DNA of 64,000 nucleotides from Prochlorococcus sp. AG-335-A05. GTDB lineage: Bacteria > Cyanobacteriota > Cyanobacteriia > PCC-6307 > Cyanobiaceae. Where the stretch lies: NCBI GenBank assembly GCA_003282425.1, contig QBZF01000001.1, positions 57,450-121,449 on the forward strand, given 5' to 3'. The notes beneath the pieces were generated by a model. The model did not search any database. It was not told where the DNA came from and worked only from the letters and a program-made list of their open reading frames with translations. Positions 678 to 58,519 of this stretch are shown one piece after another (positions within the stretch are counted from its first letter, which is position 1; the number at the start of each line of letters is the position of its first letter). Made by a program: the position numbers and the translations under genes.

Positions 678-2027
678 ATGGTTGAAAAAGTTTTAATTGC
701 TAATCGTGGAGAAATAGCTTTACGAATTATCAGAAGTTGTAGAGAGCTTGATATTGCAACTGTTGCTGTTTATAGCACTGTAGATAAAAAGGCATTGCAT
801 GTGCAATTAGCAGATGAAGCAGTTTGCGTTGGAGACTCACTAAGTAACAAGAGTTATTTAAATATTCCTAATATCTTAGCTGCTGCTACATCAAGAGGAG
901 TTGATGCTATACATCCAGGTTATGGTTTTCTTGCTGAGAACGATAAATTTGCAGAAATGTGTAACGATCATGGCATAACTTTTATTGGTCCATCTCCCAA
1001 TGCTATTAGATCAATGGGAGACAAATCTACTGCTAAAGAGACAATGGAGAGAGTCGGAGTACCCACTGTCCCGGGAAGCAAAGGTTTATTATCGAGTGTT
1101 GAGGAGGCCTACGAAATGGCAGAAGACATTGGATATCCCGTCATAATAAAAGCCACAGCTGGAGGAGGAGGTAGAGGAATGAGATTGGTTGAAAATAAGG
1201 CTAACTTAGAAAAAATGTTTAAAGCAGCCCAAGGAGAAGCAGAAGCGGCATTTGGAAATGATGGTTTATATATGGAGAAATTTATAAAAAAGCCAAGACA
1301 TGTAGAAATTCAAATCCTTGCTGATAGGTCAGGTAATGTGGTTCATCTAGGAGAGAGAGATTGTTCTGTACAAAGGAGACACCAAAAATTATTAGAAGAG
1401 TCTCCCAGTCCAGCTATAAACCATTCTCTTAGAAAAAAAATGGGTAATGCAGCTATTGCTGCTGCAAAAAGTATTAGTTATGAAGGGGCGGGAACTGTAG
1501 AATTTTTAGTAGATGATAATAATAATTTTTACTTTATGGAGATGAATACCAGGATTCAAGTGGAACACCCAGTAACTGAAATGGTTACTGGTGTTGATCT
1601 AATCGCTGAACAAATCAAAATAGCTGGAGGTGACAATTTAGAATTTACTCAAGACGATATTCAATTAAACGGTCATGCTATTGAATGCAGAATTAATGCT
1701 GAAGACCCTTCGCATAACTTTCGCCCATCGCCTGGAAAAATAACTGGATGGTTGCCTCCAGGAGGTCCTGGAGTAAGGGTTGATAGTCATGTTTATACTG
1801 GTTATGAAATACCTCCATTTTATGATTCACTTATAGGGAAATTAATAGTCTGGGGTAAAGATCGTAATACTGCTATTAAAAGAATGAATAGAGCTTTAAA
1901 TGAATGCGCTGTAACAGGAATTCCAACAACAATTAACTTTCATTTATCTCTTCTCAATAAAAGAAAATTTATGGAAGGCAAAATTCATACAAAATACGTT
2001 GAGGAAGAATTATTACCCAACTATTAA
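678..2027 (+). CDS. accC: acetyl-CoA carboxylase, biotin carboxylase subunit
   Basis: Full-length protein with [15 protein letters not shown]-grasp loop, [21 protein letters not shown]. Confidence 0.97.
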
Positions 2028-57982: not shown

Positions 57983-58083
57983 ACATAAAAAAAAGACCAC
58001 TATTTCTAGAGGTCTTTTCTAATTTTACCGAATCAAGTGTTTCCTTGTTTCCACTGTTTCAGTAAAAACTTTCCTTCACACAC
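57983..58083 (-). ncRNA. Yfr2-family-like small RNA
   Basis: Minus strand: TTTTACTGAA (58067-58058) pairs with TTCGGTAAAA (58032-58023), inner stem CAGTG/CACTTG, loop GGAAACAAGGAAACA; ends in GACC...GGTC + T8 terminator; -10 CATAAT at 58095-58090 and -35-like TTCCAC 17 nt upstream. Confidence 0.65.
57984..58018 (-). terminator. intrinsic terminator (strong on minus strand)
   Basis: AAAAGACC (57991-57998)/GGTCTTTT (58011-58018) stem followed on minus strand by T8. Confidence 0.8.
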
Positions 58084-58138
58084 ATAAACATTATGCCTTA
58101 TATTTCTTTTTCGTGGAAGGGACAAAAGGAATGTTACT

Positions 58139-58160
58139 AAACTGTCACATGTGACAGTTT
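58139..58160. promoter_or_regulatory. 22-bp perfect palindrome AAACTGTCACATGTGACAGTTT
   Basis: Directly visible; between the two candidate sRNAs. Confidence 0.5.
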
Positions 58161-58183
58161 CCTTTTTCTGGATATATGGCAAT

Positions 58184-58217
58184 AAAAAAACATCCTAATT
58201 TAAAGAAAAGGATGTTT
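58184..58217 (-). terminator. intrinsic terminator
   Basis: Minus-strand AAACATCC-TTTTCTTTAAATTA-GGATGTTT TTTT. Confidence 0.75.
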
Positions 58218-58252
58218 ACTTATCAGAAATATGTGTGTGAGGAGTTTCTGAT
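58184..58252 (-). ncRNA. candidate small RNA with Yfr1-like ACTCCTCACAC loop motif
   Basis: Minus strand ATCAGAAA-CTCCTCACACACATA-TTTCTGAT hairpin then AAACATCC...GGATGTTT terminator with T-run; -10-like TATATA just upstream. Confidence 0.5.
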
Positions 58253-58300
58253 GTATATAACCTACTGGATAAAGGGAACAAATATCTACAGTATTAATTC

Positions 58301-58519
58301 CTATTTCTTTTTCCAAAATAAGTAAAGATTTGAAAATTGGTTTTTAGTGTCCACAATTGCGGTGCTTGTTGAGATCAATTTCCATCCAGAAGCATTCCTT
58401 TTATTGATAATTGATGCAATTTCATTCTCTTGTCTTTGAGTATTTGCATTTCCTGCTGCGTAATAGATATCAAGATCATTTTTTACATTTGACATATTTA
58501 AATGTGTTGGTTTATTCAA
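58301..58519 (-). CDS. small hypothetical protein (DUF4177-like pattern)
   Basis: 72 aa; DIYYAAGNANTQRQENEIASIINKRNASGWKLISTSTAIVDTKNQFSNLYLFWKKK. Confidence 0.5.
   Translation of the reverse strand: MNKPTHLNMSNVKNDLDIYYAAGNANTQRQENEIASIINKRNASGWKLISTSTAIVDTKNQFSNLYLFWKKK

Follow-up and report, generated by a model that had tools for sequence, protein, structure and literature searches.

The minus-strand hairpin RNA encoded at 58252→58184 of the window, the 64,000-nt stretch of Prochlorococcus sp. AG-335-A05 DNA analyzed here, is, judged from its sequence, Yfr10, an already described marine-cyanobacterial sRNA, and the locus that contains it is almost certainly, function by orthology included, the yfr10–yfr2 sRNA pair of high-light-type Prochlorococcus. 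The gene pair is already known, and this copy of it is new but ordinary. Scanning of the window with cmscan gave a full-length match (model positions 1-78 of 78) to the Rfam family RF02362 (Yfr10) at 58175-58252 on the minus strand, and 30 aligned homologues agree with this assignment. The match, at 92.8 bits (gathering cut-off, 43 bits) and E = 1.5e-13, decided the identity of the RNA gene. A minus-strand sRNA had been claimed in the preliminary description of this DNA, and the claim is borne out both by this match and by the predicted fold, which has an energy of -14.8 kcal/mol compared with -5.8 ± 2.2 kcal/mol for shuffled sequences (z = -4.2; none of 200 shuffles was equal).

The minus strand from 58252 to 58184 reads ATCAGAAA CTCCTCACACACATA TTTCTGAT AAGTAAACATCCTTTTCTTTAAATTAGGATGTTTTTTTATTG. 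Its predicted structure opens with a 5' hairpin (58222-58252) having a perfect 8-bp stem, the arms of which (58245-58252 and 58222-58229) close a 15-nt loop. As the preliminary description had it, this stem presents the Yfr1 11-mer: the 11-nt motif of Yfr1 and Yfr10, ACTCCTCACAC, was located by sequence match inside the loop at 58245→58235, with its first A closing the stem. The hairpin is followed by an intrinsic terminator at 58184-58217 on the same strand, with the stem AACATCCT/AGGATGTT and then a U-run, so that the clean terminator noted earlier is also confirmed. Among 30 relatives, four of the seven counted terminator pairs exhibit two-sided compensatory changes, a level reached by none of 500 shuffles. 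The 5' stem is 98.3% paired across the same relatives and is left untouched by the covariation test because it is almost without variation. Over the 30 loci, conservation was 98% for the hairpin (loop and stem), 93% for the terminator and 58% for the start of the spacer. The motif is the sole copy within the window at ≤1 mismatch; since 0.23 such matches are expected in a shuffled window, it is not decisive alone. That expectation would favor coincidence, with both the 11-mer and the hairpin arisen by chance and no RNA gene behind them, but the full-length covariance-model match, the near-invariance across 30 genomes while the background has diverged, the compensatory terminator changes and the conserved synteny leave this explanation with a vanishingly small probability.

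Yfr10 was described in 2008 in Prochlorococcus MED4 as a 78-nt transcript at 346661..346738, adjoining Yfr2, on the evidence of Northern/5'RACE; the same report lists it within a genomic island, finds the 11-nt motif common to Yfr1, Yfr10 and Yfr18, and describes the ACUCCUCACAC motif of Yfr10 as exposed in a hairpin loop and complementary to the Yfr2 5' end (PMC2518516). The best Yfr10 match in one of the genomes that we searched, G015, has exactly these coordinates, with Cyano-1 following at 87 nt; G015 is evidently MED4, since its Yfr10 coordinates are identical to the published ones. The window RNA resembles MED4 Yfr10 in its length, its ACUCCUCACAC-loop hairpin, its terminator and its same-strand place ~90 nt upstream of Yfr2. 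It differs in the loop tail, which is ACACATAT in the window and ACACTAAT in MED4, and in the upstream neighbor, which is a same-strand 64-aa ORF in the window and a divergent annotated one in the MED4 table. G015 has further RF02362 matches near 383217 and 972241, which agree with the published positions of Yfr12 and Yfr18, Yfr10-like RNAs that lie upstream of other Yfr2-family copies (Yfr4, Yfr5); RF02362 therefore collects all three sister RNAs. However, Yfr12 and Yfr18 occupy other loci, and by both score and synteny the window copy goes with Yfr10 proper.

The suggestion that this is an islet-borne Yfr1-like RNA or mimic did not hold, as the RNA belongs to Yfr10 (RF02362), a distinct family that was already named and described in 2008. 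The preliminary description was right that this is not the guaB–trxA locus of Yfr1, the neighbors being tRNA-Asn, Cyano-1 and the 64-aa ORF. Yfr1 (RF01116) has the same 11-nt motif as the window RNA, and the targets of Yfr1 and Yfr10 are therefore probably overlapping. In Yfr1 of the guaB–trxA locus, however, the motif sits single-stranded between two stem-loops (PMC6778093), whereas in the window RNA it lies in a hairpin loop. A relocated or duplicated true Yfr1, or an islet-borne mimic of it, would account for the identical 11-mer, and RF01116 had no match in the assembly. Nevertheless, we regard this origin as highly unlikely, given the full-length RF02362 match in a window where RF01116 had no match at gathering, the different placement of the motif, and the separate canonical Yfr1 in 22 of 23 near-complete genomes of the genus and class, with G015 carrying both Yfr1 and Yfr10. 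Moreover, a guaB–trxA query, which matched all four relatives tested, had no match in this assembly, and a search of the assembly for IMP dehydrogenase returned just a single partial match, weak and under the cut-off; most likely, the assembly does not include the guaB–trxA region. The missing Yfr1 thus says nothing about true absence, because the entire guaB–trxA region is likewise missing from an assembly that is 54% complete, and we rejected it as an argument for a mimic. The candidate "Yfr1 mimic" can be struck off the list, the RNA being named, in Rfam and already studied.

The sRNA with which the RNA had been said to stand in tandem is Cyano-1 (RF01701), matched at 58085→58016 with 58.6 bits (gathering cut-off, 41 bits) and supported by its predicted fold; it lies on the same strand as Yfr10, 89 nt downstream of it, and its own minus-strand terminator is at about 58017-57987. 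Cyano-1 is taken here as the Yfr2 family, an assignment that we infer from position, sequence core and, in part, the literature. The likeness of the window neighbor to this family is one of covariance-model membership; in addition, the Cyano-1 core loop GUGGAAACAAGGAAACAC is present letter for letter in the window copy, and the Cyano-1 of G015 occupies the published MED4 Yfr2 position. The 5' segment of the window Yfr2, AUGUGUGUGAAGGA (58072-58085, minus strand), is complementary to the Yfr10 loop with one bulged A, and an 11-nt perfect complement joins 58076-58086 of Yfr2 to 58230-58240 of Yfr10. The computed duplex between the Yfr10 loop and Yfr2 has a predicted energy of -20.5 kcal/mol, and none of 200 loop shuffles was as good. 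Most other loci have a similar predicted Yfr10–Yfr2 pairing, with several, among them L007, L020 and L030, pairing only weakly. After the GU-run, the Yfr2 family usually reads GGAGAGG or GGAGTGG, whereas the window copy reads GGAAAGT, and its predicted pairing with Yfr10 is therefore shifted toward the GU end.

By orthology, Yfr10 would be a trans-acting antisense RNA of ~70-78 nt, the ACUCCUCACAC loop of which would pair with complementary mRNA sites. Yfr2, which follows ~90 nt further along that strand and carries a near-complement of the Yfr10 loop at its 5' end, could bind Yfr10 (and Yfr1) and titrate Yfr10 off its mRNA targets, and the binding of Yfr10 would protect Yfr2 from RNase E. Published work describes the motif common to Yfr1 and Yfr10 and places Yfr10 upstream of Yfr2 in the HL strains; it further reports that Yfr2 pulls down Yfr10, that Yfr2 pairs with Yfr10 and Yfr1 and relieves their action on targets, ppa being a target that it releases, and that binding of Yfr10 or Yfr1 blocks RNase E cleavage of Yfr2 (PMC6778093). 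For the MED4 RNAs, others demonstrated binding, titration and the RNase E step by pull-down and by assays in vitro and in E. coli, and mutation of UCCU in the loop of the MED4 RNA was reported to have an effect in the case of the target ppa. The evidence from the window is sequence, structure, synteny and complementarity, and the function of its pair would be that of the orthologous MED4 RNAs.

Alternatively, the pair could be mainly one processed dicistronic RNA of ~263 nt, with the ratio of the two RNAs set by processing and not by two promoters. An RNA that begins at 58252 and ends with the Yfr2 terminator (~57990) would indeed measure about 263 nt, and the MED4 table includes a 270-nt "precursor of Yfr10 and Yfr2" (PMC2518516). 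We consider this arrangement improbable, since Yfr10 has a good terminator of its own, a conserved palindrome lies just before Yfr2, each of the Yfr2 homologues of MED4 is served by a separate promoter to which GntR binds, and Yfr10 differs from Yfr2 in the conditions to which it responds (PMC6778093). This palindrome, the perfect 22-bp AAACTGTCACATGTGACAGTTT at 58139-58160 between Yfr10 and Yfr2, has a mean column identity of 0.84 versus 0.58 for the neighboring spacer and is kept by relatives mostly as AACTGGCACATGTGACAGTT. From its sequence, it is a candidate regulator site or operator of a yfr2 promoter and may correspond to CGRE1, a published GntR element.

The yfr10–yfr2 pair is widespread in the genus. 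The Yfr10 model matched in 123 of 151 same-genus genomes and in 49 of the 51 near-complete ones, counts that include the sister RNAs Yfr12 and Yfr18. In 27 of 29 same-genus loci scanned, a same-strand Cyano-1 comes after Yfr10 at a distance of 80-90 nt; at the cut-off, Cyano-1 was not found after Yfr10 in the other two (L026 and L030). An exact 18-mer of the Yfr10 hairpin occurs, among GTDB genomes, almost exclusively in Prochlorococcus records, and we take two non-cyanobacterial matches (L045 and L083) as chance or misbinning. As to the tRNA-linked island mentioned earlier, MED4 Yfr10 is listed in a genomic island, but a same-scoring tRNA lies close downstream in only 2 of 29 same-genus loci, and a general tRNA linkage of yfr10, lacking in most of them, was rejected. 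Carriage of the locus by phage was likewise rejected. The 321-bp locus had no match in the phage collection, and CAGAAACTCCTCACAC, which is present in ten viral contigs, looks like a set of chance 16-mers there, since none of the ten matches Yfr10 by Rfam.

The comparative value of the locus is modest: some 30 aligned yfr10–yfr2 loci reveal a conserved element upstream of yfr10, and one lineage has apparent matching changes in both partner RNAs. The loop tail ACACATAT of Yfr10 occurs in this genome only, the other 29 loci differing (e.g. ACACTAAT), and the window Yfr2 reads ATGTGTGTGAAGGAAAG where most loci read ...AAGGAGAGG or ...AAGGAGTGG. Predicted energies are -20.5 kcal/mol for the window's own Yfr10–Yfr2 pair versus -16.9 kcal/mol for consensus Yfr10 with the window Yfr2; the window Yfr10 gives -16.6 kcal/mol with MED4 Yfr2 and -17.3 kcal/mol with the Yfr2 of another locus (L008). 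These predictions raise the rather doubtful idea of a joint change in the Yfr10 loop (ACACACAUAU) and its neighbor Yfr2 (AUGUGUGUGAAGGAAAG) that displaced the contact between them and made it stronger. If true, the pair would partly be a private, locally co-evolving sponge, beyond the universal Yfr1-type contact. As a single lineage is concerned, there is one possible co-change event, which is a lead, not a demonstration.

The conserved element is the block GAATTAATACTGTAGATATTT at 58280-58300 (minus strand), about 28-48 nt ahead of the 5' end of Yfr10; most related loci likewise have the block (T)AATTAATACTNTAGATATTT, placed 28-48 nt before Yfr10. Its mean column identity is 0.91 versus 0.63 further upstream. 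Four of five genomes searched (G000, G015, G002 and G105) hold a single copy of the block at 0-1 mismatch, which in every one of them precedes yfr10, with other matches at the level of the reversed control; the fifth, G022, had no match at 0-1 mismatch. The block is a candidate promoter or regulator element, e.g. the site of a light/dark regulator of yfr10, the regulator of which was stated to be unknown in a 2019 study. The 64-aa ORF, at 58301-58495 on the same strand as Yfr10, ends 48 nt upstream of it and is 65-91% identical in many relatives, usually at the same place. It had no Pfam family above the cut-off, with DUF4177 at E 0.011.

Three of the related loci exhibit peculiarities of their own. 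The L022 Yfr10 (1501-1578, minus strand) has a mutated motif (ACGCCTCACAC), the upstream conserved block is gone, and a sequence resembling the end of the 64-aa ORF stands directly in front of Yfr10; it is possibly a decaying or 3'-end-fused copy. On the minus strand of L003 (G000:C2:38798-41865), at about 1731-1661, a Yfr10-like sequence with the motif region ACTACTTACACTC lies upstream of a second Cyano-1/Yfr2 copy. Its best local alignment score was 49, compared with a maximum of 44 in 500 shuffles, and it has the appearance of a Yfr10-like gene that has decayed, recalling the way Yfr12 precedes Yfr4 in MED4. Finally, in L009 a Glutamine-II riboswitch match (RF01704; 1319-1378) precedes a same-strand Yfr10 by about 120 nt.
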